A DNA stretch of 64,000 nt from Clostridia bacterium (lineage in GTDB: Bacteria; Bacillota; DAOUPZ01), in assembly GCA_030625885.1 (NCBI GenBank), contig DAOUPZ010000021.1:1-64000 (forward strand), given 5' to 3'. A model generated the notes under the pieces. That model was not told where the DNA came from. It was given only the letters and a program-made list of their open reading frames with translations, and ran no database searches. Within the stretch, counting starts at the first letter, position 1; every line of letters begins with the position of its first letter. Shown one piece after another: positions 3,525-56,956 of this stretch. Both the position numbers and the translations under genes were made by a program.

Positions 3525-3762
3525 AACAAAAAACTTCGCCCTAAATATCCTTAGGGACGAAGTTTATCCGCGTTACCACCCTTATTAACTAATTATAAAA
3601 TCAGCTCTCTTAAGAAACATATAACGGTATCACCCGTCTAGATATACCTGCGTTTAATCTAGAAGCTCCAAGCCGGGTTCAATATTCAGAGGATCAGAAA
3701 TCTCTCAGCCCCGGATTCCCTCTCTTAAGATCATAAATATCTACTATCACTTTTCTCAGCTA
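3525..3762 (-). promoter_or_regulatory. T-box riboswitch, apparent proline specifier, upstream of putP
   Basis: Minus-strand leader with the T-box antiterminator sequence AGGGTGGTAACGCGG (3568-3582), followed by a terminator whose arms are ACTTCG.CCCTAA and its complement (3533-3563) and a T-run. Upstream are Stem I features: an AGTAGA near 3741-3746, the AGAGAG region and a loop. The GAA that commonly precedes the specifier (3678-3680) is followed by CCC (3675-3677), a proline codon. Known mechanism: uncharged tRNA binds specifier and T-loop, favouring antitermination. The proline assignment is by position and fits the downstream symporter. Confidence 0.9.
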
Positions 3763-3918
3763 TTTAAATATTATGTATCATTGTCTAATATATTGTAATA
3801 AATATGCAATTGTTTGTCAATTAATTTCCTTAAGTAAATTTTATTCCATTCCGCCAGCGCCAATTCAACCGGCATAAAAACACAACCTAAGTATCTACTT
3901 AAGGAAAGTACTAAAATC

Positions 3919-11315: not shown

Positions 11316-12041
11316 TTATTTAATTATACCCTCAACGCCTATGGTAACTTCCTGGTAAGGGAGAATTGTTTTCGCATCCAGCATCGCTTGTTTTACCGCA
11401 CTTACCATACCATTGCAACATGGCACTTCCATTTTAACAACTGTAATACTGTTAATATGATTATTGACGAAAATCTCCGTCAACTTTTCCGTATAATATG
11501 CATTATCGTCCAGTTTTGGACAACCCATTACGACCACACGGTCTTTGATGAAATCTTTATGAAAATCACCATATGCAAAAGCTGTACAATCTGCAGCAAT
11601 CAACAGATCTGCATTTTCTAAATAATCTTCCCGTGGATGAACAAGGTGCAGCTGTACTGGCCATTGGCGAAGTTCAGAAGGCCTCTTACCATCGTCACCA
11701 AGGGGCTCTTGCACTCCTTTTTTTACTGGCTCATCCATTCTATCGATTCGCCTTGCCATTGTTCCCGGGCAACCACCAAGAAGCGTTTTACTTTCCTTAG
11801 CTTTCTTTTCTATCCTACGTTTAACAGCCTCCTCATCATACGCCTCTGCTTCCCGCTCAGTAATCTCTATTGCACCAGTCGGACAAGCCGGCAAGCAATC
11901 ACCCAGCCCATCACAGTATTTATCGCTTACCAATTTGGCCTTACCCTCAACCATTTGAATCGCACCTTCATGACAAGCATTCACACATAACTCGCAACCA
12001 TTACATAACTTTTCATCTATTGTAATAATCTTTCGTTTCAT
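11316..12041 (-). CDS. 4Fe-4S dicluster ferredoxin-domain protein
   Basis: A 241-residue cytoplasmic protein. Two [4Fe-4S] motifs lie at the N-terminus: CNGCELCVNACHEG at about 14-27, and a second, CDGLGDCLPACPTG, at about 43-56. A central LGGCPG precedes a C-terminal half with cysteines (AADCTAF, MGCPKLDD, PCCNGM) typical of a clostridial family of unknown function annotated as ferredoxin or 4Fe-4S binding protein. The conserved cysteines in the second half suggest another metal or redox site. It is monocistronic with a clear RBS. Redox partner unknown; electron transfer is likely, but no reaction should be assigned. Confidence 0.85.
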   Translation of the reverse strand: MKRKIITIDEKLCNGCELCVNACHEGAIQMVEGKAKLVSDKYCDGLGDCLPACPTGAIEITEREAEAYDEEAVKRRIEKKAKESKTLLGGCPGTMARRIDRMDEPVKKGVQEPLGDDGKRPSELRQWPVQLHLVHPREDYLENADLLIAADCTAFAYGDFHKDFIKDRVVVMGCPKLDDNAYYTEKLTEIFVNNHINSITVVKMEVPCCNGMVSAVKQAMLDAKTILPYQEVTIGVEGIIK

Positions 12042-12136
12042 GATTAAACCCTCCTTTAAAGTATCTTGATTTGTAACCCTATTATAATAAAATGATCCAT
12101 AATAATCAGTAACCTATGTTACGAAAAACGTTTTAT

Positions 12137-12189
12137 GGCAACATGGGGACACACCACTCGTACCTCGTGGAATGTCCCCATCTTTCCTT
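12137..12189. repeat. REP-like hairpin element, copy 1
   Basis: Unit beginning GGCAACATGGGGACA and ending CATCTTTCCTT. The inner part folds as ATGGGGACA and CCAC against GTGG and TGTCCCCAT. It is almost identical to 33582-33634 (two differences inside the hairpin). The shape matches REP sequences mobilised by RAYT (REP-associated Y1 transposase) enzymes in other Firmicutes; no such transposase is in this window. Confidence 0.75.
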
Positions 12190-12266
12190 TAACAAGTAAC
12201 AGATGAAAAAATACGTTAGCTATATTCCTATAATCTTATTATGCTTTCCTATAACCTTCAAAAAAT

Positions 12267-12306
12267 ACCTGTAGCTGCTTTCAATTTATTGAAAGCAGCT
12301 ACAGGT
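12267..12306 (-). terminator. Terminator of the two-component/redox operon
   Basis: Perfect 18-bp stem (ACCTGTAGCTGCTTTCAA and complement) with a four-base loop, followed on the minus strand by TATTTTTTG, just after the kinase stop at 12313. Confidence 0.9.
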
Positions 12307-12312
12307 AAATCA

Positions 12313-13722
12313 TTATAAATTCCTATATTTTTTTAACTCAAATCCAAATCTTACCCCTTTATCTACATTTACAGCATAATACTCACTCTGATGCAATTCT
12401 AATATGTTTCGAGAGATTGCCAGCCCCAAGCCCGTTCCCATTTTTACATCCTTCACCTTGTAAAAGCTTTGCCAAATATAGGGCAAATCTTTTAGCGGGA
12501 TAGCCTCACCCGTATTAAACACCGAAACATCTATTCTGTCATCTTTCTGCAACACTCGAACTTGAACCAAACCCTTTTCTTCCGTATGCCGAATCGCATT
12601 ATTTAAAAAGTTAGTGACAACTTGCTCCATTCTCCCTTCATCTGCATAAACTTTAAAATTTCTCAGATCGCTTTCAAATGTTAATTTAATTTCTTTTTCC
12701 AAACAAATTTTTTGATACTTTTCCACAATATGAGCCACACTGCTGATCATATCAAAAGATTTAGGACAAATCTTAAATACACCCGATTCCAGTTGTGATA
12801 AATCCAGCAAATCTCGGATCATTTGGCTCATTTTATGGGTTTCACCTTGAATAACATCGTAGTAATTTAGCTGTTCTTCAAAATCTTCAACAATCCCGTC
12901 AGATAAGGCTTCCGCATATCCCTGAATAACAGAAATAGGCGTTTGCAATTCATGAGAAACCTGTGCCACAAACTGTTTCCGCAAACGATCCAAATTCTTT
13001 TCCTTTTGCAGTTCTTCTTCCAATCTGCCTATGGTCTTTTCCAATTTCTCTGACATCATATTAAATGTCCGTCCTAGATGACCAATCTCGTCTACTCTTT
13101 TTTCATCATATCTCACGGAAAAGTTGAGTTTTTGAATTTCCTGAGCCATCTGATCTAAACGGATTAACGGCTTGGTAACAATCTTCGAAAACAGGAATGC
13201 TAACAAAACAGCAACAATTATGGCAACCAAAATAATATACCCATAAAACCCTTGAATAATGGTTACCGCCTCTCTAATAGAATGAAACGGTATTTGAAAA
13301 ACCAGCCATGCCTCTGGCGTTAATTGTTTCTCATAGATCAACCATTCTACATCTCCAGTTTGCCCAGTCAATTTGTACATTAATGATTGTTGTCCTGCAT
13401 CCAATTTAAACCGCTTCAAAACCCCCCACCCTCTATTACTGCCTCCCGTCATGTAAATCACATCTCGGCTAGAATCTAAAAGTGAGACTTTCCCTCCAAC
13501 ATGCTCCGCGATATCGTCCAACTCTTTGCGTAATGTTTGATCAGATTGAGTCTGATAAATGTCTTGAATATACAGCGCATCTTCTTGAATGGTTTCAATT
13601 TTTTTATCCTCATAATAGTCTGGCAAAAAATATGCTGTTAAAGCCCATCCCAGAAGCAATATCAACCATACCAATCCTAAGAAAATTCCAAACATTTTAA
13701 AGGAAATGGACTGTTTTTTCAT
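12313..13722 (-). CDS. Sensor histidine kinase
   Basis: A 469-residue membrane sensor kinase. A first membrane helix lies at about 11-33, an extracellular sensing region at 34-155, a second helix at about 160-178, and HAMP at about 179-232. HisKA carries the phospho-acceptor His257 in SHELQTPIS. The HATPase domain has an intact N box (NFLNNAIRH) and the GTGLGLAIS glycine box. Its start overlaps the stop of the response-regulator gene by four bases (ATGA), so the two are coupled. Upstream in the same operon are electron-transfer-type genes, so the stimulus may be redox- or envelope-related; this is inference. Confidence 0.95.
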   Translation of the reverse strand: MKKQSISFKMFGIFLGLVWLILLLGWALTAYFLPDYYEDKKIETIQEDALYIQDIYQTQSDQTLRKELDDIAEHVGGKVSLLDSSRDVIYMTGGSNRGWGVLKRFKLDAGQQSLMYKLTGQTGDVEWLIYEKQLTPEAWLVFQIPFHSIREAVTIIQGFYGYIILVAIIVAVLLAFLFSKIVTKPLIRLDQMAQEIQKLNFSVRYDEKRVDEIGHLGRTFNMMSEKLEKTIGRLEEELQKEKNLDRLRKQFVAQVSHELQTPISVIQGYAEALSDGIVEDFEEQLNYYDVIQGETHKMSQMIRDLLDLSQLESGVFKICPKSFDMISSVAHIVEKYQKICLEKEIKLTFESDLRNFKVYADEGRMEQVVTNFLNNAIRHTEEKGLVQVRVLQKDDRIDVSVFNTGEAIPLKDLPYIWQSFYKVKDVKMGTGLGLAISRNILELHQSEYYAVNVDKGVRFGFELKKYRNL

Positions 13723-14396
13723 AGTTTCACCTCAAAACGATAACCTAATCCCCTTACCGTTGACAGGTATTCACTCATTTCCTGAAGCTTTTTCCGCAAC
13801 CGTTTGACGTGGGTATCTACCGTTCGCAAATCACCAAAGTAATCATGTCCCCATACCCCATCTAGTATTTTCTCACGGCTCAACGCAATATTTTTATTAT
13901 TGATAAAGTATACCAATAAGTCGTATTCTTTAGGTGTCAATTCGATCACTTCTTCATTAATAAACACCATATGATATTTTGTATTTATCTTTAAAGTTCC
14001 AAAAACAATTTCATCCTCAAAAGATGTTTTGCCGCTTCTTTTAAGCAGGGCCTTTACTCTGGCAACCAATTCCTTCGTACTGAATGGCTTGGTCACATAA
14101 TCATCAACCCCCAGCTCAAAGCCAAATAATTTATCATTCTCTTCACTTCTCGCTGTTAGCATCATAATTGGAACCCGGCTCTCCCGCCGAATATTGCGGC
14201 AAACTGTCCAACCGTCATACTCTGGAAGCATCACATCTAAAATGACCAGATCAATCTCACTTTCCGACCATCTCTCCATTGCTATTTTCCCGTCTTCGGC
14301 CTCCACGACTTCAAAATCCTCTTTCCTCAAATAAGTAGCGACTAGCTTCCGCAACCGCATATCATCCTCAACAAGTAAGATTTTTAAGCTATTCAT
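13719..14396 (-). CDS. OmpR/PhoB-type response regulator
   Basis: A 225-residue DNA-binding regulator. The receiver domain has acidic residues E10-D12, the phospho-accepting Asp54 in VILDVMLPEYDGW, Thr81 and Lys103 (VTKPF). The C-terminal winged-helix Trans_reg_C domain contains the usual LTPKEYDLL and TVDTHVKRLRKKL stretches. The kinase gene follows with a four-base overlap. The promoter region and targets are not visible; self-regulation of this five-gene operon would be typical. Confidence 0.95.
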   Translation of the reverse strand: MNSLKILLVEDDMRLRKLVATYLRKEDFEVVEAEDGKIAMERWSESEIDLVILDVMLPEYDGWTVCRNIRRESRVPIMMLTARSEENDKLFGFELGVDDYVTKPFSTKELVARVKALLKRSGKTSFEDEIVFGTLKINTKYHMVFINEEVIELTPKEYDLLVYFINNKNIALSREKILDGVWGHDYFGDLRTVDTHVKRLRKKLQEMSEYLSTVRGLGYRFEVKL

Positions 14397-14409
14397 CCAT
14401 GATCACCTT

Positions 14410-15522
14410 CTATTTTTCTGCCTTTTTCAAGGCCTCTTCAACTGCATTTTTTATCGCGTCACTGGTTAATGTTGCCCCGGTGATATTGTCAACATTTACG
14501 GACTGTTTCTCAATAATCAGCAGCGGAATAGATACTATTGGCTCTTCATAATATCCCCGTGATTCATTATGAGATAAAATATCAATATTCACTATTTTAT
14601 CATTATTTATGGTAACGGCTGCCTTAACATCAGATCGATAACCTCTGGCCGTTCCGGTAAAAGTACCCTCATTATATTTTTCAGATATTTTTTCTTCATT
14701 TTGTTCTAAATGATTTTCTAATATTACTTCATGTACGGCTTCTTGTTTTGCTGTATTGGATATTGACGGTTCTTCCTGAGGATTATTAATTAACCGTTGC
14801 AATTCATTCTTAACAGCTGAAAAGGTCAGCCCTTTTTCTGCACAGAAATCACGTACGCTGATTCCTGAATCATTGAAAGAATAGCCAATAACCCTTTCAA
14901 TCTGATCTTTGGTAAGACCCATATCATACAATTCCCCAAATGTCGTTTTCCCCTTTATAGCAACTTCATTTTCTTCATGAACCGAATTCTGGATCGTTGC
15001 CTGCTCTTTTTGAGATTTGGAATCGCTCAAACCCCCAAAATCAATGGTGTGCTTTTCAAGATATTCTAATTGCGCATCTGAAAGATCAGCTTTTTCCTTC
15101 AAAATAGCTACTGCAGCAGCAGGCAAATACGTTTCTTCTTCCATATCATAAGGAAGCCCTGTATAAAGCGCCACAAACAGTCGTACCGAACCTGTTCCAA
15201 TTTCTTCCTCATCTTCCTCACTGATTGCATAATTTTCTTTAACACTTTTACATTGAAAAGTTACCGCATCTATAGCTGTTGGTAATTCAAATGCTTCTTG
15301 TAGATCTTCCAACGATATCGTAAAATTTTTTACAATATCACCAAATGTATATGAACCTCTGATATCCGCCGGATTGCTTTCCCCGGCAAACACCCCTGTT
15401 TGAATCTTAGCCGGAACTTTACTAGACTCCGTTTGCCAGTATCCTAATGATTTAGTTACCCCAATTCCTCCAAATAAAACCACAAAAATAACCACTGCCA
15501 TGGATACAGATTTAATTTTCAT
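14410..15522 (-). CDS. Membrane-anchored FMN-binding (flavinylated) protein
   Basis: A 370-residue exported protein. After an N-terminal membrane segment (about 7-25) come two helical modules with TFGDI/TFGEL starts, then a C-terminal FMN_bind domain. This ends in DNITGATLTSDAI (about 345-357), the site where ApbE-type enzymes attach FMN to a threonine. The frame is open to 15585, but ATG 15522 has GGGGGTG at good spacing and starts at the signal. It overlaps the polyferredoxin gene by 11 bases. The pair resembles NapH/RnfG-like electron chains across the membrane. No ApbE gene is present in the window. Confidence 0.85.
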   Translation of the reverse strand: MKIKSVSMAVVIFVVLFGGIGVTKSLGYWQTESSKVPAKIQTGVFAGESNPADIRGSYTFGDIVKNFTISLEDLQEAFELPTAIDAVTFQCKSVKENYAISEEDEEEIGTGSVRLFVALYTGLPYDMEEETYLPAAAVAILKEKADLSDAQLEYLEKHTIDFGGLSDSKSQKEQATIQNSVHEENEVAIKGKTTFGELYDMGLTKDQIERVIGYSFNDSGISVRDFCAEKGLTFSAVKNELQRLINNPQEEPSISNTAKQEAVHEVILENHLEQNEEKISEKYNEGTFTGTARGYRSDVKAAVTINNDKIVNIDILSHNESRGYYEEPIVSIPLLIIEKQSVNVDNITGATLTSDAIKNAVEEALKKAEK

Positions 15523-16417
15523 TTGCTGCACCCCCATCCACAATATGACCAGCCGTATCCCCAGTTTCCTTACTTCCCATGACAAGTTCTACGGTATCTG
15601 CAACCGGACAAGCATTTTCAGACGTGCATTTCATACAAACAATACATTGATGGTTTCTAATATTTTCTCCTCTGGAAACGGATATATTCATAGGACAAAC
15701 ACGATCACAATTACCACAGGAAATACAAGTTGCCGAATTTCGCCTGATTTTAAATACTTTGAAAAGATTAAACAAACCTAATAATGCGCCATAAGGACAA
15801 AGATATTTGCACCACGGCCTTTCGACAAACAACGAGCTAATGATTGTAATTGCCAGAACAATCAACCCCCCCACAGCAGCTTCACCGTTCCAAAAATTAA
15901 ATAACGCATGATAGGGATCAATATGATTGAATTTTAAGTAACCCACTTTTGCAGTAATATAAATAATCCAAAACAACAAACCATATCTCAAAAAACGTAA
16001 ATATTTATCATATTGATAGGGAATAAAATGATTATATCTTTTTCCGAATATTTTCTTTCCAATACCACTAATCCATTCCTGGAAACTTCCCAAAGGACAA
16101 ATCCAACCGCAGAAAACAGGTCCAAAGCCTATTGCCAAAATAAACATAATAAACATTAAAATAAAGGAAGATTCATGAATCCATTTTACAAACATCCCCG
16201 TTGTCAAATATTTATAAATGCTGACGACACCGCCAAAAGGACACAGTCCATGAAGTGAAGCAGAAGATAACCACGGAATGCCCCCGCCATTTTCCGCCAA
16301 AGTATGATTAACTGCTATTAAACCTATAAGTGCAAAAAAGAATATTTGGATACCTAATCTAATATAATTCTTCTTGTGGATAGAGTTATATTTAACCTTT
16401 CTTTTAAAATCCACCAT
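15512..16417 (-). CDS. NapH-like membrane polyferredoxin
   Basis: A 301-residue membrane protein with about five helices. Early cysteine pairs are LCPFGG and FCGWICPLG, a third is YLCPYGA, and two classical [4Fe-4S] clusters lie near the C-terminus: CISCGNCDRVCPMN and CIVCMKCTSENACP. This is the NapH/NosR-C/MauN-type architecture, passing electrons from the quinone or cytosol to an exported acceptor; here the acceptor is probably the flavinylated protein encoded next. ATG 16417 is chosen because AGGAGGTGATCGT precedes it; the frame is open 13 codons further. Confidence 0.88.
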   Translation of the reverse strand: MVDFKRKVKYNSIHKKNYIRLGIQIFFFALIGLIAVNHTLAENGGGIPWLSSASLHGLCPFGGVVSIYKYLTTGMFVKWIHESSFILMFIMFILAIGFGPVFCGWICPLGSFQEWISGIGKKIFGKRYNHFIPYQYDKYLRFLRYGLLFWIIYITAKVGYLKFNHIDPYHALFNFWNGEAAVGGLIVLAITIISSLFVERPWCKYLCPYGALLGLFNLFKVFKIRRNSATCISCGNCDRVCPMNISVSRGENIRNHQCIVCMKCTSENACPVADTVELVMGSKETGDTAGHIVDGGAANEN

Positions 16418-16439
16418 ACGATCACCTCCTGTAATTTTA

Positions 16440-16467
16440 GCCGGGAAACCAATCATAGCTCCCCGGC
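16440..16467 (-). other. Hairpin between the DUF2680-type and polyferredoxin genes
   Basis: GCCGGGGA and TCCCGGC pair across a short loop on the minus strand, between two genes of one operon. There is a bulge and no T-run, so an mRNA-stability role is more likely than full termination. Confidence 0.4.
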
Positions 16468-17131: not shown

Positions 17132-18874
17132 CTACTCCATCTTCAGTTTAAAAGAGATATAGTTAATTCCCGAAATCCGGATATGGCTGACTTCCTGCCC
17201 CATCTTGCTTAATAATACCAATCCTAGCTGATCCAGTTCCTCCTGAGTGGCAAGAGTCATATCTTTTGCTGCTTCGATCCTATCAATCTCATCAGCCGTA
17301 GACCGATCCTGTACTTCCACCGCAATGCCATCCTCTTGCTGAATGAAGGTAAATAAAGTATGATTGCTCAAGCCCTCTTTTTGCTGTATATTGCAAAGAT
17401 AAATAAATACCTCCTCACATAAAAGCTGGAGATTAAGTACCAATTTGTGAGTCAGTTTAAAGCTTTTTTCCATTTCACTGATAAATTCATTCAGTTCTTC
17501 CAAAGCCCCTGTCTCTGACTTTAACTTTAGGTTTAATCTGTGTTTAGGCATTAACTGAAACAGAAAACTTAAAAGAAAGGCAACTGTTCCCCCGGTAGCA
17601 ATTCCATTATTCAGTAAAGGCGCTAAAGCAGGTGGAATAAGGTTTGGAAAAAAGAGATTGTTTTGTGCCACAAACCCCGACCAAAAAGATAAACCGATAA
17701 TCAAAACAGATTGATAATTGACCCCTGAAAGCGTTGCGATCTGAATCCCAGTCACAAAGAGCATCGCTTGAAAAATAAGCATAGATGCTCCCAGTACCGG
17801 CTGGGGTATATTAATAATCAGCATGCTCAGTTTAGGGAAAAAGGCCAGAAAGGCAATAATCGCCGCACCAAACATGCCCACCTGGCGGGAAGCAACCCCC
17901 GTCAACTCAACCATCGCAATATTCCCAGAAAAAGTAGTGTTAGGAACTGTTCCAGCTAACCCTGCCATAAAATTCCCAATCCCATCAGAATAAAGACTTC
18001 CCTGCACACTTTCATAGTCAATCTTTTTAAAATTACGCAGTGATACACGCTGAATGGCCATCGCATCCCCCACGGTTTCTACTGATCCGACAATAGTTAC
18101 AATGATAAAGCTAAGGAGCAATGGTAAATATTCCCTTTTAAGCTCAAATTGAACCCCCGGCCAGCTTCCTCGCGGCAAACCAAAGAACGCTGCTTCCCGG
18201 ACAGAAGATAGATCAACCCTACCTAAAAAAGCAGCCAAAATATACCCTAATATAATCCCAATAATAGGTCCCCACAAACGAATGGTTTTATTACCATAGA
18301 TGGACGCCCCTAATATGATTATGAACGTCACCAAGCCTATCAACAGATTTTCTATAGAGCCATACGCCGGACTTCCGGGTTGCCCCACCCATAAACTAAT
18401 AGCAATAGGAACCAGCGTAACTGGAACCAACATAATCACCACCCCGCCCACCGCAGAGGTAATGATTTTCCGCAAACGTCCAAGAAAATAGGAAAATAAA
18501 AACTCAATGGGAGCCGCCAGCATTGACATAGTAGCCACCAAAGCAAAGCCACCCAGTTCCGCCGCTGAAAGGCTACAGGCCAAAAACGCCCCAGACGTCC
18601 CCATAAACAAGGTATACCCTGAACCAATTTTTCCAACTCGTACTGATTGTATCAACGTCGAAATACTAGTTACGATCATGGACGCAAATACGATATATTC
18701 TATTTCTTGTGCCGGAACATGGACGGCATTAGCAATAATAATCGGTACAACAACAATGCTGCTATAAATCGTCAGCACATGCTGCAATGCCTGAAAAATA
18801 GTGATCATTACAGGTGGCTTTTCATCTACAGCATATAAAAGTGTTCCCGCTTGCTTTGCTTTATCCAATTTCAT
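17132..18874 (-). CDS. NCS2 purine/pyrimidine permease fused to an RsbW-like domain
   Basis: A 580-residue protein. Residues 1 to about 440 form a complete uracil-xanthine permease (NCS2) with about 12-14 helices and the family motif NTTFSGNIAMVELTGVASR. After a short linker, about 457-580 resemble an HATPase_c_2 (RsbW/SpoIIAB) domain: an N-box-like LLCEEVFIYLCNIQ with Glu487-Glu488 but Tyr where the Mg-binding Asn should be, no clear DxGxG box, then the QLGLVLLSKM stretch (549-558) and a final beta strand. It is therefore probably not an active kinase. It closes the peptide-export operon, 70 bases behind the second exporter gene. Substrate not determined. Confidence 0.85.
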   Translation of the reverse strand: MKLDKAKQAGTLLYAVDEKPPVMITIFQALQHVLTIYSSIVVVPIIIANAVHVPAQEIEYIVFASMIVTSISTLIQSVRVGKIGSGYTLFMGTSGAFLACSLSAAELGGFALVATMSMLAAPIEFLFSYFLGRLRKIITSAVGGVVIMLVPVTLVPIAISLWVGQPGSPAYGSIENLLIGLVTFIIILGASIYGNKTIRLWGPIIGIILGYILAAFLGRVDLSSVREAAFFGLPRGSWPGVQFELKREYLPLLLSFIIVTIVGSVETVGDAMAIQRVSLRNFKKIDYESVQGSLYSDGIGNFMAGLAGTVPNTTFSGNIAMVELTGVASRQVGMFGAAIIAFLAFFPKLSMLIINIPQPVLGASMLIFQAMLFVTGIQIATLSGVNYQSVLIIGLSFWSGFVAQNNLFFPNLIPPALAPLLNNGIATGGTVAFLLSFLFQLMPKHRLNLKLKSETGALEELNEFISEMEKSFKLTHKLVLNLQLLCEEVFIYLCNIQQKEGLSNHTLFTFIQQEDGIAVEVQDRSTADEIDRIEAAKDMTLATQEELDQLGLVLLSKMGQEVSHIRISGINYISFKLKME

Positions 18875-18944: not shown

Positions 18945-21848
18945 CTAGGCAAGCTGCCTTTTAGCCAGTTTAGCAAAAAGGCCTTCCTTGTTAATCAGTT
19001 CTTCATAGGTACCATTCTGCACAATCCGCCCATTATGCAACACATAAATCCGATCCGCATTCATAACCGTACTAAGACGGTGCGCTACTACTACCCGGGT
19101 AGCCTGCAAGTTATCCAAGCTTTCACTGACAATTGCCTGTGTCCGATTATCCAGCGCACTCGTCGCTTCGTCAAAAAAGAGCATATGTGGTTTTTTGACA
19201 ATGGCCCGGGCAATTAAAAGGCGCTGCCGCTGTCCTCCCGACAAAGTACCCGCTCCTTCCGTAAGAAAAGTATGCATCCCCATCGGCATTTGCCTGATAT
19301 CTTCGTCTAATCCAGCCATCCGTGCAGCTTCCCAGGCATCATCCAGCGTCAAATTTGCCGATCCGATAATATTGGTAAAAATATCACCGGAAAGCACTTT
19401 GTCATTTTGGAGAACAACACCAATCTGGCGCCGAACACTTTGAACATCCAGCCCATCTAAACCCTGTCCATCATAATAAATCGCCCCTGACTCAGGTGTT
19501 TCAAAACCCAACAACAACCTAAAAAGCGTTGATTTTCCGCTTCCAGACGGGCCAACAAATGCCACAAATTCACCCGATTTAATATGTACAGAAACATCAT
19601 CCAAAATAAATCTCCCATCTGTTTTATAACGAAAACAGGCATGATTGACTTCAATTTCACCTGCCAGTTCACCGACCTCCGCTTTCGCTTCATCTACTTC
19701 TGGCAATTCCTGCAAAATGACTTTTCCTCGCTCATACAAAGGGATAATATTTAGAAGCATCATCCCAATAGATGACAAAGCAATCATAGCCATTAGGAAA
19801 GAGGTAAATGCAGCATTAAAAGCCAGAAAATTTCCTGTAGACAAGTGCACATTCTGCGAAGAAACATACATGGTGAAAATAATCATTGTCGTTATAACAG
19901 GATATGTCCCATTAAATACTGAGAGATAATTGAAAATCATTCGCAACTTAAAAGCAATTTTCCTCTGAATACTGAATTGTTTTGCCCAAAGATAAAAAGC
20001 TCTGTTCTCTGCACCAGCAACACGAAATTTAGCAATACCATTAATAATCTGGAGCACAAGCCCGGATATTTTTCCTTCAATATCCGCATACAATCGATGA
20101 TAACGTATTTGCCCAACGCTTAAAAGAACTATAACACCTATAAACACGCCCCCTAAAGCAACTGCTGTCCATGCTAACGTCATATCGTAAAAAAACAAAA
20201 CCACCAAATTAAAAAGAGAAATCACACTCGTAAACAACGTAGACATAACCGCACCCGAAAAAGCCTCATGAATCGCATCAATCCCCAGTGCTCTTGTTGT
20301 CAAATCCCCTGCCGTAAAACGTCTAAAAAATGTCACCGGCAATCTTAATAGCCGATCCCAGACCGCTGCCTGCAAAGAAGCATTCATCTTTCCTTCTATC
20401 CGTATCAACGTAACAGCGCGAGTAATTTGAAAGAAAAATGCTGCTAAAGAACCTGACATTAGGAGTACGGTCATCCATATCAACTGTCCCCTTTCTGATT
20501 CCGGGATAATACGATCAAATAATATCCCTGTAGCCACGGGGATCATAATACCTAGCAATCCACCCAAAATACCCATTAAAATCACAGTTAGCATATCTTT
20601 TCTGGCAATATCTTTCATTTCAAATCGGAGTAAATCAACCCAAGTAATTGAACGCGCTGGAAAAGGACGATAAAAACTATAGGCAAGTGGCTTTAACCTT
20701 TCCGCAATTTCTTGGGAAACACGCATTTTTACCTGCTTTTGCGGGTCGATTAACTCATAAGAACTAGAACCCACCGGCAGTAAAGCAACAGGTCTTCCAT
20801 CTTGTTCCATGTAACCAACAAGAGGACCATTATCCCTACACCACCACTCTCCCTTTAAAATTACCTGGCGCATACGAATACGAGAAGCCCGGGCAATATC
20901 TCCCAGGGGGTCGTTCTGTTGTCCACTATTTTTCCCCAACAACTGCGGCACGATTTCAATTTCCATAGCATCACCCACCAGTTGGCAAACCCTCAACAGT
21001 GGATCAGATACACCCTCTTTAAAAGCCTGTGTCTCCTCATTTTCATCCACTACAACAGCTGCCAGTTCTGATAGGGCATCTTCCACAAATTTCTGTTCTC
21101 TTACAGCTTTTTTCCTAAAACGGTTTCCTTCCTTCGCTTCCTGTTCTTTTCTATGCCTCCCAATATACTGCAATACTAGATCATGAAATAAATCCAAAGA
21201 TTCTTCGGCAATATCTTGTTTGATAAAGTCTTCTGTCTTGATAACCTGTAGGTCGCTATCTATATGTGAATATAACCATATCTTCTTATTAAGCGGGTAA
21301 AAAACCGCGTTTTTTACACAAGGCCATTCCGCTCCAATAAAACTCAATTTACCTGACAGCGGCTGAACCCACAGTATCTCTTCCTCTGGTCGAATGAACG
21401 AATTTTTCCCCACACTCAATGTCCCATCAGCACAGACCCGGATAAAATCCTTCGGAGGAATATCCTGATTAACGGCCATAGAAAGTTCGTTTACCCAGCG
21501 CTGGAGCAAAACAGCAATATATTGTTGATATTTCACATCATTTGCTAATGCGAACAATTTGGATTTGGGAATCTTAAGAAGGCGTGTACCAGAAGCACCA
21601 TATGCTAAAAGTCCCATCTCCTCCTCTTTCTGTGGCTTTAACCCAAATAATCCTATGCCTGCTCTTACACGATAAAAATGTCTTAACCTCCCTGACGGCT
21701 TACCATTCCTCATTGGCACAGAAAAAATATCTAATCTTCCGTTCTGAACAATCCACACATACTCTGAATCATTCAATAATAACGGCTTATTGCCCTCTAA
21801 ACATATCATGTCGCCCTCTGCTAAAAAAACATTCCCTATATCAGGCAT
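18945..21848 (-). CDS. NHLP-type peptide exporter, ABC permease/ATPase without peptidase
   Basis: A 967-residue ABC exporter subunit of the NHLM_micro_ABC2 type. The first 400 residues are a large cytosolic region with cyclic-nucleotide-binding-like beta structure. Then six helices of an ABC transporter type 1 domain (about 415-700), then the nucleotide-binding domain with [24 protein letters not shown] and [12 protein letters not shown]. In known NHLP systems it pairs with the C39 peptidase exporter, encoded 32 bases upstream. Both ATP sites look intact. It would help move a modified or plain peptide across the membrane. Confidence 0.9.
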   Translation of the reverse strand: MPDIGNVFLAEGDMICLEGNKPLLLNDSEYVWIVQNGRLDIFSVPMRNGKPSGRLRHFYRVRAGIGLFGLKPQKEEEMGLLAYGASGTRLLKIPKSKLFALANDVKYQQYIAVLLQRWVNELSMAVNQDIPPKDFIRVCADGTLSVGKNSFIRPEEEILWVQPLSGKLSFIGAEWPCVKNAVFYPLNKKIWLYSHIDSDLQVIKTEDFIKQDIAEESLDLFHDLVLQYIGRHRKEQEAKEGNRFRKKAVREQKFVEDALSELAAVVVDENEETQAFKEGVSDPLLRVCQLVGDAMEIEIVPQLLGKNSGQQNDPLGDIARASRIRMRQVILKGEWWCRDNGPLVGYMEQDGRPVALLPVGSSSYELIDPQKQVKMRVSQEIAERLKPLAYSFYRPFPARSITWVDLLRFEMKDIARKDMLTVILMGILGGLLGIMIPVATGILFDRIIPESERGQLIWMTVLLMSGSLAAFFFQITRAVTLIRIEGKMNASLQAAVWDRLLRLPVTFFRRFTAGDLTTRALGIDAIHEAFSGAVMSTLFTSVISLFNLVVLFFYDMTLAWTAVALGGVFIGVIVLLSVGQIRYHRLYADIEGKISGLVLQIINGIAKFRVAGAENRAFYLWAKQFSIQRKIAFKLRMIFNYLSVFNGTYPVITTMIIFTMYVSSQNVHLSTGNFLAFNAAFTSFLMAMIALSSIGMMLLNIIPLYERGKVILQELPEVDEAKAEVGELAGEIEVNHACFRYKTDGRFILDDVSVHIKSGEFVAFVGPSGSGKSTLFRLLLGFETPESGAIYYDGQGLDGLDVQSVRRQIGVVLQNDKVLSGDIFTNIIGSANLTLDDAWEAARMAGLDEDIRQMPMGMHTFLTEGAGTLSGGQRQRLLIARAIVKKPHMLFFDEATSALDNRTQAIVSESLDNLQATRVVVAHRLSTVMNADRIYVLHNGRIVQNGTYEELINKEGLFAKLAKRQLA

Positions 21849-21880: not shown

Positions 21881-24085
21881 CTAATTCATACTAATGAGTT
21901 GCTTATAGGGGCCAACCACATCTTTCATTTCCTCATGCGTTCCCCGCTGTACGATTTTTCCCTTATCCAAAACAATAATCTCATGACAATCTCTAATTGT
22001 ACTCAATCGATGCGCAACTATAATACATGTACAGCCACGGCGCCGAATGTAATCGTTAACCTGTCTTTCCGTTTCAGCATCTAATGCACTCGTTGCCTCG
22101 TCAAGGATGAGAATGGTAGGATTCGCTGCCAATGATCGTGCAATTTCCAATCGCTGCAACTGACCACCGCTGAAGTTCCTGCCGTTTTCTTCCAACATAT
22201 GTTCATAGCCATCTTCCCGAGCCAGAATATCACTATGAATACAAGCATCTTTAGCACCATTTATGACCTGAGATTCAGGAATCGTGGTATCCCAGAGTGT
22301 TAGATTGTCCCTAATCGTCCCTTCAAACATACTGATATCTTGATCCACCAACGTTAGAGAATGATTGATCACGGATCGAGGCCATTCATTTCGTGTTTTT
22401 CCATCAAACAATATTTCTCCCGACCAAGGTTGATATAAGCCCGCAATCAATTTGGCAAGCGTTGATTTACCGCTCCCCGAACCACCTACCAACGCTACCC
22501 GATCACCCGGATGCAGTTTTAAATTAAAATTTTCAATAAGAGGAGACTCCAAGCGGCTGTAGCCAAAGGTGACGTTTCGCAATTCAACATACCCATTCAA
22601 TTTACAGGAAATATCTAAATCTTCTGACACGGTTAGCTTATCCTCAACCTGCTTGTCCACAGGATAACGCAACACATCATCCAGACGATTGATATCTCCT
22701 TCCACCTCTTGCAGTTGTCCGCCCAAACTTACCAAGTTGTTCACAGGTGCCATAAAACTAGCCATTAAACTTTGAAATGCCACCAACGCACCCACTGTCA
22801 AATGCCCATTCATAACATGTATACCACCCACTGATAGGATCGCTGTATGATTCAATGCTGTCAGCAATGGCGGCACTGCAGAAAGCAACTGACTGGAAAC
22901 TTCCAGTTCCTGTTCTGAATTAACCAGTTTAGCATGATAGCCAGCCCATTTTGCAAAAAAATCTGACTCTCCGCCACTTGCCTTAAGTGTTTCAATAATT
23001 TGCAAACCTGCCATGGACGTACTAAGCAGCTTTCCCCTTTCCTGCAACAATCTTTGGTTTTGATCAACCCGCCGCCGAGATATATATCTTAAAAAAGCAA
23101 CATTCAATAACGCCATAACAAGGCCGATTAAGGTAAGTGTTATATCATACTGTAACATCAATAACAGAAAAAAAACAATCATCATCGCATCTAAAATATT
23201 CGTTGCCAGCTGCCCGGAAAGTAACCGTGCAATCCGATCATTAAGCAATACGCGGGTTCCTATTTCCCCCCCAAAACGCTGACTAAAAAACTCAATCGGC
23301 AAATGAAGTACATGCCAAAAAAATTTGCTTGATGTACTCAAAGCAAGTTTCATTTCCAAACGCAAAAGATAATACTGTTGTAACCAGGATAATACACCCC
23401 GCAAAACGGCCGTAGCCCCCATCCCCATAAGAAGTGGGAACAACCATTCTTTCATTTCTCCTAACAAGATATGGTCCACAAAAACCTTCGATAATACCGG
23501 AATGACCAATCCGGGAATAACCAAAGCTACGCCCACTAACACAACATAGGTTAATGCCATACCATCACCTGTTAGTCTTCTTTTTAATCCGTTAATAATG
23601 GTTCTTTTTTCACCACCAGGCTTAAAAGCATCACCCGTTTCAAAAGTTAGGACAATTCCCGTAAAGGACTGGTCAAACTCTTCTTCAGAAACAATACGAG
23701 GTCCTACACCGGGATCATTTAAATAAACCCTGCCTTTTTTGAATCCTTCTAAAACAACAAAATGGTTAAAATTCCAGTGAATAATCATTGGACTAGCCAT
23801 TTCCCGTAATGCTGCTGGTTCTTTCCGATATCCCTTAGCAATCAATCCATATTCCCTTGCGGCTTTTATAACATTGCTGGCCTTGCTGCCATCCCGGGAA
23901 ACCCCGCAAGCAAGACGCAATTCTTCCAGAGGAACCAGTTTTCCATAGTAACCTAAGATAATGCCCAGTGCAGCCGCCCCACACTCCACAGCTTCCATTT
24001 GTAACACAGTGGGTGTTTTAACCCGTTTAGGTAATTTTTCTCGATTGTTATTTTGTTTTAACTTTGTTTTTATTTGTATCTGCAT
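21881..24085 (-). CDS. NHLP-type peptide exporter with C39 peptidase domain
   Basis: A 734-residue peptidase/permease/ATPase. The N-terminal C39 domain is complete: Cys35 in [11 protein letters not shown], His108 in NHFVVLEG and Asp124 in NDPG. C39 peptidases cut leader peptides after a double glycine. Six helices follow (about 175-440), then a nucleotide-binding domain with [24 protein letters not shown] and [11 protein letters not shown]. It is the central gene of the export operon, 15 bases behind the HlyD-like adaptor. The likely client is the double-glycine peptide at 28949-29080. Confidence 0.93.
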
Positions 24086-24100
24086 CAGGTTAACAACTCC

Positions 24101-25039
24101 TCAACGGAAAGGAATAATCATTTGAATGGGTCGTTCTTTTTTCACAATAATCGATGACGCACACAGCGTACCACTCGTCATTTTCATATCTGGTCCTTCC
24201 TTTGATGACCATTTATATCCACTCAGCATACCCTCATCGGGTATCAAATCCACGCGCACTTCGATCGGCGCCCCTTTTCCCAATAACATTTGAACCAGTT
24301 CATCTTTTCCTAAAACACGCATCATTTCCCTGTATGTAACCGGATATTTAGAAACTGAAACCACTCTGCCCATCATAAATCCATATTCCTCTTTCTTAAC
24401 AATGGTAGGTGCAATTTGCACATCCATACCGGGCAATATTTTTTTCCCTTCTTCCAGAGGGATATATACAACAGCTTCCAAATTCTTCACCGTATCACCT
24501 TCCAGTTCTAGACTGACAACTGGTGAACCTAAATCAATAAAATCCCCTTTTTGTACCTTTACTTCCAAAACGCGTCCTTCATAGGAACTGACAACTCGAG
24601 AATCTATCTCCAATCTCTCTTTCAAATGATCGATTTCGCGTTCCAATTTATCAGCATTACCGTTAACTATCCCATTTTTGATTTCTTGCAAGTCAAATTC
24701 CATATCACAGATCTGTTCAGTAATTTCTGTATGATCCATTCTCGCAATAACTTCACCTTTATGAACATGATCCCCCGCAACCACTCTAATATCCGCAATT
24801 TGCCCTTCTGAAAGCGCAATAACGTCGGAAATACCGCCGCCTTTAATCAAAACGCCCTGTCCGTTCACCTGAGTGGAAATGGTACCGAATATACTCCATA
24901 AAATGACGCCAATAAGTAAACAACCCAGACCGATCAAAGCCACCCACCCCCGGGGCGTCGTAACAGTCAGTAACTGATCCAGTTGTTCTGGAGACGAGAG
25001 CCGCTCCAATGCTACTTTACGAAATAATTGCTTTTTCAT
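24101..25039 (-). CDS. HlyD-family adaptor of the NHLP-type exporter
   Basis: A 312-residue membrane-fusion-like protein. It has one N-terminal membrane helix (about 33-53), a biotinyl-lipoyl-like half (VIALSEGQIADIRVVAGDHV), a short coiled region (about 115-150) and a C-terminal barrel. It fits the NHLM bacteriocin secretion protein family and would link the two ABC exporters to the outer face. It sits between the binding-protein lipoprotein (42 bases) and the peptidase exporter (15 bases), clearly in one operon. Confidence 0.88.
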   Translation of the reverse strand: MKKQLFRKVALERLSSPEQLDQLLTVTTPRGWVALIGLGCLLIGVILWSIFGTISTQVNGQGVLIKGGGISDVIALSEGQIADIRVVAGDHVHKGEVIARMDHTEITEQICDMEFDLQEIKNGIVNGNADKLEREIDHLKERLEIDSRVVSSYEGRVLEVKVQKGDFIDLGSPVVSLELEGDTVKNLEAVVYIPLEEGKKILPGMDVQIAPTIVKKEEYGFMMGRVVSVSKYPVTYREMMRVLGKDELVQMLLGKGAPIEVRVDLIPDEGMLSGYKWSSKEGPDMKMTSGTLCASSIIVKKERPIQMIIPFR

Positions 25040-25081: not shown

Positions 25082-26251
25082 CTACTCCAGTAAGTAATCA
25101 AACGTCCCCTCCTGCACCACTTTTTTAATCACTAATTTATCCGAAACCTCCCCCATCTCATCAAATGTATGGAAGCCGGTCACCCCGGGCCAGATACTGG
25201 TGGTCCGTAACGCAGCCGCTATTTCATCGGGAACAGTAGAGCTCGCCAATTCCATAGCATGGGCAAGCAACATGACCGCATCATACCCCTGGGCTGCCCA
25301 GGCATCAGGCATGTTACCATATTCTTCTGCAAATGCTTTAATAAATTTCCCTACTTTGGGGCGTTTGTCATACGGATTAAATATGGAAGCTACAACTGTC
25401 CCTTCTGCTGCTTCCCCACAAATTTCCAAAAATTCCGGTAAATCCAAACCATCCCCACTGATAATGGGAACCGCAACCCCTTCTTCCCGTAGTGTACGAA
25501 TAAATTCAGCCCCCTCCGGAACCGTATCTGCTACAAAAACACCGTCAAAGTTAAAAATTCGCCATTTATCCAATGTTCGTTTAAACGTTTCATGGTCGCT
25601 TATATTGGTACACCGATCAACAATTGAGATACCTTCTTCCTGCGCCTGGTCCTCAAACGAATTAGCCAATCCCCGCCCGTATTCATTATCCGCATAAACG
25701 ATCACCATCCGTCGACAACCCTTTTCCATAGCAAATTGAGCCATTTGGCTGCCAATTTCCGTATCACTGGGAATACTACGAAAAATACGTTTATAGCCCA
25801 TTTGTGTGAGCTTAGGACTCGTAGAACCCGGTGTCAACATCAAAAGCCCCGTCTTCTCGTAAATTGCTGAAGCCGGCAGGGACACAAAGGAATTACCATG
25901 ACCGATTACAGCTACTATATCCAAATTATCTGCAAAATCCTGCGCTATTGTCATCCCTCTAGTCGTCAAACCTTCATCATCTTGACGTATTAGACGAATC
26001 TTACGGCTCATTACCCCCCCTGTTGAATTAAGTTCCTGTGCTGCCAGTTGAATGCCTTCCCAAATCATATCATTCCGCTTGGAAAAAGGCCAAGCGACGC
26101 CGATTACAATATCCCCTTTTGCTTTTTTAGCCTTGGCAGCCCGCTCACCAGCTAGATCATGCTCACCTAAACAACCTGTCATAAAAATCATGACACAAAT
26201 TAATACCGCTAAAACCTTATATTTCATAGTAAAGTAAGGCTTATTCAACAA
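25082..26251 (-). CDS. LivJ-like type I binding lipoprotein in the export operon
   Basis: A 389-residue lipoprotein. The signal ends in a lipobox (IFMTGC, Cys27), followed by a periplasmic-binding type I fold (Peripla_BP_6) with IGVAWPFSKRNDMIWEGIQLA and PGSTSPKLTQMGYKRIFRSIPSD, as in branched-chain amino acid receptors. The LivHMGF membrane parts are absent. The start is TTG at 26251, nine bases behind GGGAGGAGG; the ATG eight codons later has no ribosome site. As first gene of the export operon it may be a ligand sensor or a receptor for the exported peptide, or serve the NCS2 permease; all three are inference. Confidence 0.85.
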   Translation of the reverse strand: MLNKPYFTMKYKVLAVLICVMIFMTGCLGEHDLAGERAAKAKKAKGDIVIGVAWPFSKRNDMIWEGIQLAAQELNSTGGVMSRKIRLIRQDDEGLTTRGMTIAQDFADNLDIVAVIGHGNSFVSLPASAIYEKTGLLMLTPGSTSPKLTQMGYKRIFRSIPSDTEIGSQMAQFAMEKGCRRMVIVYADNEYGRGLANSFEDQAQEEGISIVDRCTNISDHETFKRTLDKWRIFNFDGVFVADTVPEGAEFIRTLREEGVAVPIISGDGLDLPEFLEICGEAAEGTVVASIFNPYDKRPKVGKFIKAFAEEYGNMPDAWAAQGYDAVMLLAHAMELASSTVPDEIAAALRTTSIWPGVTGFHTFDEMGEVSDKLVIKKVVQEGTFDYLLE

Positions 26252-56685: not shown

Positions 56686-56824
56686 AAAAAAAACTCCCCA
56701 TTTGACATGAGGAGTTTTTTGTATGTAAAAACACATACTACACACAATAAACATCCTGTAGTCTGTAAATTAAGGTTTACAGGTAGAAACTTCCGAACCA
56801 AATTATCGAAATTATACATGATGT
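56686..56824 (-). promoter_or_regulatory. Guanine-class purine riboswitch with terminator
   Basis: Aptamer at 56751-56824: P1 arms ACATCATGTA and TACAGGATGT (one mismatch), then the conserved TATAAT, the TTTGGTTCGGAAG loop, GTTTCTACC and a P3 hairpin with CCTTAA loop, then GACTAC. The C after GACTA is the ligand-pairing base of guanine/hypoxanthine sensors (adenine sensors have T). A terminator (AAAAAACTCC and GGAGTTTTTT, 56688-56720) follows, so ligand should switch off the transporter operon. Confidence 0.93.
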
Positions 56825-56956
56825 TGAAAATACATTATAATGAAATTTATTATATCTCACAATCTGTATTTATCAATATTAACTTTTATTGTACAAGAAC
56901 AACCCTATAATATAATAAAGGGTATAACTTGTCAATAAAAACTATTTCAGTAAATT

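Follow-up and report, generated by a model that had tools for sequence, protein, structure and literature searches.

An NCS2-fold carrier with a degenerate RsbW/SpoIIAB-like tail and its possible link to STAS partner switching

Introduction

Partner switching among STAS proteins, RsbW-type kinases, and SpoIIE phosphatases is known mainly as a means of sigma factor control. A gene for a membrane carrier that ends in an RsbW-like domain raises the question of what such a domain does on a transporter. The gene lies in the window analyzed here, a stretch of 64,000 nucleotides from a Clostridia bacterium (contig DAOUPZ010000021.1, positions 1 to 64,000). The original prediction, made from the letters alone, described a purine/pyrimidine permease whose last residues probably form a noncatalytic interaction domain, and suggested control by a free STAS protein.

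Results and Discussion

The fusion gene

Both the open reading frame and the joining of a carrier to an RsbW-like domain were confirmed, with the minus strand as the coding strand; a plus-strand reading of 17132-18874 was ruled out by stops all along the frame. The gene, designated P0001, is laid out as follows.

17132..18874, minus strand: NCS2::pseudo-RsbW fusion gene P0001, 580 aa, ATG start (ORF call and Pfam)
17675..18802, minus strand: NCS2/SLC23 (Xan_ur_permease) membrane domain, residues 25-400 (Pfam PF00860, E=1.7e-58)
17135..17554, minus strand: predicted RsbW/SpoIIAB-like pseudokinase domain at the C-terminus, residues 441-580 (HATPase_c_2, hhalign, and type-B profile)

P0001 also matched the NCBIfam pbuX-like model (5.5e-85, under that model's cutoff), and UapA, UraA, and SVCT1 are relatives of its carrier domain in the PDB. 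Pfam found no STAS domain in the protein, so it lacks the fused STAS expected of an SLC26/SulP carrier.

Relatives and their distribution

Full-length relatives were recovered by tblastn from plasmids of Azospirillum, Thiodictyon, and Pseudoroseomonas, where "solute carrier family 23 protein" is their sole annotation, and a scan of genome contigs added 15 further loci. A profile (A7) built from these plasmid and contig relatives was then searched in whole-genome samples. Fused carriers were present in at least 26 of 385 Alphaproteobacteria genomes (~7%; three of the 29 matches were unfused) and in at least nine of 369 from Gammaproteobacteria (~2%). Seed genomes are among those sampled. Scoring was limited to the top three candidates of each genome, which makes these counts lower bounds. 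Within the phylum of P0001 itself (398 genomes), no other full-length relative was found among the top three candidates per genome. The survey of NCS2 proteins proposed with the original prediction thus shows that the arrangement is not unique to this locus.

The C-termini fall into two subtypes, type A with the motifs GEALEAL, FDEFNL, and LADRV, and type B with EEALLTLL and LRLLRHxASSVxHQQYHDTD. In a tree calculated from the carrier domain only, P0001 grouped with all 17 type B proteins (SH-aLRT 100). Its highest identity is to L115 (44%), and its nearest relative by tree path is L133, a type B protein and the gene of locus L148. Types A and B occupy separate branches, and the fusion may therefore have arisen twice.

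The tail as a degenerate RsbW-like domain

Homology of the P0001 tail to the HATPase_c_2/RsbW-SpoIIAB family is supported by profile similarity. HATPase_c_2 (PF13581) matched residues 453-563 at 19.8 bits in a scan of the whole protein, and the C-terminus scanned alone gave 24.2 bits (E=3.7e-5), a significant match that nevertheless falls under the Pfam gathering score of 27.4. The tail of L133 does pass this cutoff (31.4 bits, 2.1e-7). A type-B C-terminal profile matched P0001 residues 441-580 at 21.5 bits, and 200 shuffled sequences gave no more than 6.5. When profiles were aligned by hhalign with canonical RsbW-like kinases, the alignment covered the whole domain; the P0001 tail alone gave 3.3e-6 (probability 88%), type B together with P0001 gave 1.9e-7 (94%), and type A tails gave 1e-5 (82%). 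These figures are single pairwise comparisons with no database search behind them; the kinases were taken from the fused-carrier loci and the genome of P0001, and the set included one stray non-kinase ORF (L039), which was left out of the motif comparison. A chance match to the Pfam family was ruled out by the shuffles and the profile comparison.

Other searches were less informative. Against the PDB, the P0001 plus type-B profile ranked anti-sigma RsbW chains first or close to first, but with nonsignificant E-values of 0.5-1.5, a direct sequence search with the P0001 tail gave no match, and the type-A profile returned nothing relevant. Direct similarity between type A tails and the P0001 tail was undetectable; type A was therefore not taken as proof for the P0001 tail, and type B was used instead.

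Alignment with the canonical kinases located the remnant of one ATP-binding box.

17399..17413, minus strand: degenerate N-box, E488-V-F-I-Y492, with Tyr in place of the expected Mg/ATP-binding Asn

The P0001 tail has neither a DxGxG nor a GGLG box. All seven canonical kinases carry E/DxxxN, DxGxF-like, and GGLG-like boxes, and the GGLG box is absent from all 60 fused tails. The initial full-family alignment diverged too much to be scanned for patterns. The rare N- and G1-box pattern matches in fused tails fall outside homologous columns. The original prediction holds here for the RsbW/SpoIIAB-like identity, the Tyr in place of Asn, the unrecognizable DxGxG box, and, as far as motifs can tell, the noncatalytic state. 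Because the ATP-binding boxes are missing, the tail is by sequence a pseudokinase without kinase motifs, and not an RsbW kinase. The same comparison bears on whether the tail could be a membrane-anchored RsbW, an active serine kinase that phosphorylates STAS. Its HATPase_c_2 homology is what would be expected of one, but the N-box Asn, DxGxF, and GGLG are gone family-wide while the canonical kinases encoded nearby retain them; on motifs, this scarcely credible reading was rejected.

Loss of the carrier signature

The TM1 "QH" motif is present in P0001, and phmmer alignment to UapA combined with comparison across the family placed two further positions.

18077..18079, minus strand: Glu266, equivalent to UapA E356, in TM8 (ETVGD), kept
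17924..17926, minus strand: Gly317 at the NAT signature Gln position (UapA Q408), in TM10, context TFSGNIA

The TM10 signature Gln/Glu is replaced in every fused protein (~55) and kept in the unfused NCS2 proteins (~34), with the sole exception of L105, an unfused member whose genome also has fused copies. In UapA, changes at the NAT signature motif abolish or strongly cut purine transport, and Pro at this position marks ascorbate carriers (PMC5972032). The NCS2 fold named in the original prediction stands; because the signature Gln/Glu is lost in all fused carriers, the label "purine/pyrimidine permease" is doubtful, and a nucleobase is not established as the substrate of P0001. A beta-carbonic anhydrase (Pro_CA) gene adjoins the fused carrier at two loci, L164 (8044-9126, minus strand) and L181 (6837-7610, plus strand).

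STAS, SpoIIE, and kinase genes beside fused carriers

Neighborhoods were compared for 52 loci, which together hold 55 fused genes. Their flanks yielded nine STAS genes, and eight of these lie within 1 kb of a fused gene, a zone that makes up 13% of the flanking DNA (binomial p=7.7e-7, uncorrected for kinship of the loci). At seven of the eight loci, the adjoining STAS gene is on the same strand as the fused gene. None of 36 loci with unfused NCS2 genes had a STAS gene in their 1.5-kb flanks. The co-occurrence of STAS genes that the original prediction proposed to survey is seen at these eight loci, often with SpoIIE as the phosphatase. The gene orders, with module domains assigned by Pfam, are as follows.

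L061: dCache-SpoIIE / HATPase / STAS / fused carrier
L168: RR-SpoIIE / HATPase / STAS / fused carrier
L148: LivK-like Peripla_BP_6 protein / HAMP-SpoIIE-HATPase / STAS / fused carrier (type B, nearest relative of P0001)
L053: fused carrier / STAS / RR-SpoIIE-HATPase
L063: STAS / fused carrier / SpoIIE
L179: STAS / fused carrier / SpoIIE
L181: fused carrier / STAS, with HATPase nearby
L164: STAS gene divergent from the fused carrier

A partner-switching module encoded together with the carrier is found at L061, L168, L148, and L053, and not in the window. Assignment of the L063 STAS as MlaB, raised by an mlaC-like gene upstream, was judged unlikely; no mlaC was noticed at the sister locus L179, which has the same STAS/carrier/SpoIIE order.

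If the tail were merely a structural or dimerization domain needed for folding or stability, the STAS neighbors would be incidental. Such a role would sit well with the 47 of 55 fused genes whose 1-kb surroundings lack a STAS gene, and with the lack of one in the window. It does not account for the enrichment of STAS beside fused genes and its absence from unfused ones, nor for the full partner-switch operons that include the fused gene in several branches lying far apart on the tree, and is considered quite unlikely.

A proposed partner switch

The frequent presence of a separate live kinase and phosphatase fits a dead RsbW-like tail as a docking target. Drawing on the observed fusion, tail homology to RsbW-like kinases, loss of ATP motifs, spread of the family, and STAS/SpoIIE/kinase adjacency in relatives, the reading favored here, with moderate confidence, is that the fused carrier forms the transport side of a partner-switching module, in which a free STAS protein, whose state depends on a phosphatase and a kinase, binds the pseudokinase tail and so controls the carrier. 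Phosphorylation of the free STAS would be set by a SpoIIE phosphatase that bears a sensor and by a live RsbW-type kinase; the unphosphorylated form would dock on the tail, as it does on RsbW, and the phosphorylated form would not; docking would then alter the activity or stability of the carrier. Physical binding of STAS, its regulation by phosphorylation, and the direction of the effect are inferred, there being no interaction data. The control by free STAS put forward in the original prediction is strongly supported on genomic grounds by the adjoining STAS gene at eight loci of relatives, often with SpoIIE and an RsbW-type kinase; no partner gene is present in the window.

Several observations weigh against the partner switch. 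The window contains no partner genes, and most fused genes have no STAS within 1 kb, as noted above. The single-sequence Pfam score of the P0001 tail is sub-cutoff, and in profile searches the RsbW chains of the PDB came up only at E ~0.5-1.5. Type A and P0001 tails share no detectable direct similarity, and no predicted fold is available.

The main rival to the STAS-switched output reverses the flow of information. In a transceptor, the carrier would be the input: the substrate state of its NCS2 domain would tune sequestration of STAS by the tail, an anti-sigma factor would be released or retained, and transcription would be controlled. RsbW-like domains classically work through STAS sequestration, and a carrier converted to sensing would be consistent with the missing NAT signature Gln of all fused members. 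However, the SpoIIE phosphatases already bear sensors of their own (dCache, HAMP, and response-regulator domains), which leaves a second input unneeded, and no sigma factors were found among the flanking genes checked by Pfam, a check that covered only part of the flanks. The transceptor is accordingly held to be improbable, and the partner switch with the carrier as its output remains the preferred reading.

The NHLP operon in the window and partners elsewhere

P0001 closes a densely packed minus-strand run of genes, a putative NHLP-exporter operon whose end is probably marked by a terminator-like hairpin.

25082..26251, minus strand: LivK-like periplasmic binding protein (Peripla_BP_6), first gene of the putative operon
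24101..25039, minus strand: NHLP system HlyD-type secretion protein (TIGR03794, over curated cutoff)
21881..24085, minus strand: NHLP peptide exporter ABC1 with C39 peptidase (TIGR03796, over curated cutoff)
18945..21848, minus strand: NHLP peptide exporter ABC2 (TIGR03797, over curated cutoff), 70 bp upstream of the P0001 gene
17086..17108, minus strand: terminator-like hairpin directly 3' of the P0001 gene (consensus match only)

The gaps from the LivK-like gene through HlyD, ABC1, and ABC2 to the carrier are 42, 15, 32, and 70 bp. The terminator scan found 11 candidates with 8.9 expected by chance. LivK/Peripla_BP_6-type proteins also border fused carriers at L148 (4511-5755) and L181 (9740-11032), and the LivK-like protein is possibly a periplasmic sensor. 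NHLP precursor peptides are encoded elsewhere in the same genome (C15:28951-29530 and C24:89018-89233).

NHLP genes also lie near fused carriers in Chromatiaceae (L033 and L052), a link in two distant lineages; most fused-carrier loci are without them. NHLP operons as general hosts of the fusion were dismissed, five annotated plasmid NHLP loci being without it. The Chromatiaceae loci (L033:2482-7503 and L052) hold truncated copies of the carrier together with STAS, SpoIIE, and NHLP genes, the last of these broken in Thiodictyon, and appear to be a decaying or rearranged cluster.

The window showed no gene for a STAS protein, a SpoIIE phosphatase, or an RsbW-type kinase, and the partner of P0001 is inferred to be encoded elsewhere in its genome. 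STAS/SpoIIE candidates are present on contigs C9, C4, C34, C5, and C26. Contig C9 carries a 5TM-SpoIIE / STAS / kinase module, unlinked to the P0001 gene, whose STAS (7e-19) and SpoIIE (4e-38) are the genome's closest to the L148 partners. Contig C4 (L079:6842-8970) carries a CHASE4-SpoIIE / STAS pair that lies 159 bp from the contig end and lacks a kinase gene.

Relation to known systems

The open-access papers searched included none on an RsbW-like domain attached to a transporter (subscription literature was outside the scope), in line with the original prediction, which knew of no described system of this kind. The RsbW/SpoIIAB anti-sigma serine kinases (PF13581) share a homologous domain by profile, and relatives of P0001 encode STAS and a SpoIIE phosphatase nearby; unlike them, the P0001 tail has no ATP-binding boxes and is joined to a carrier, and the loci examined show no evident sigma factor. 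SLC4, SLC23, and SLC26 belong to one superfamily with a 7+7 transmembrane fold (PMC6497670). SLC26/SulP anion transporters thus share the fold superfamily and a cytoplasmic tail from the STAS/RsbW switch, which is a C-terminal STAS in their case; the P0001 family is the mirror image, with the RsbW-like side fused and STAS free. Compared with the NCS2/NAT nucleobase permeases PbuX, UapA, and XanQ, P0001 retains the Xan_ur_permease domain, TM1 "QH," and TM8 Glu, but is 580 aa long with the added tail, and the TM10 Gln/Glu is lost in all fused members. In MlaFB, the free STAS protein MlaB regulates an ABC transporter by binding its ATPase, MlaF (PMC7367683). There too a free STAS acts on a transporter and not on a sigma/anti-sigma pair, but the MlaB system has no RsbW-like domain. 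Partner switches with non-sigma or membrane-sensor outputs (RR-SpoIIE-HATPase with STAS, SiaA-type phosphatases, SypA-SypE) use the same SpoIIE/STAS/kinase cassette, whereas the output of the fused-carrier family appears to be a transporter-linked pseudokinase.

A more speculative synthesis, offered tentatively and judged possible without being the likelier outcome, is that these proteins form a widespread, undescribed class of the NCS2 fold that has moved away from nucleobase transport and is switched posttranslationally by a phosphorylatable free STAS on the pseudo-RsbW tail, as a mirror of SLC26/SulP; in the window it would be tied to an NHLP export operon, and the carbonic anhydrase neighbors hint that some members may carry an anion, inorganic or organic. 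A carrier family with a built-in RsbW side would extend partner switching to direct control of membrane transport, and would offer a natural counterpart to the STAS tail of SLC26 carriers, itself poorly understood. What the fused carriers move is a question prompted by the loss of the signature residue. The idea can be tested directly in cultured species that have complete operons (Pseudomonas lopnurensis, L061).

Other features of the window and genome

A purine riboswitch (56739-56839, minus strand) and a T-box leader (3550-3766, minus strand) are present in the window, neither of them upstream of the P0001 gene. Downstream of the carrier, past the terminator-like hairpin, a two-component system lies beside genes for NapH-like 4Fe-4S, FMN_bind, and ferredoxin proteins (11316-16456, minus strand). 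Elsewhere in the genome, a stressosome-like cluster (C39:687-3430) contains three STAS ORFs with a HATPase_c_2 match nearby.
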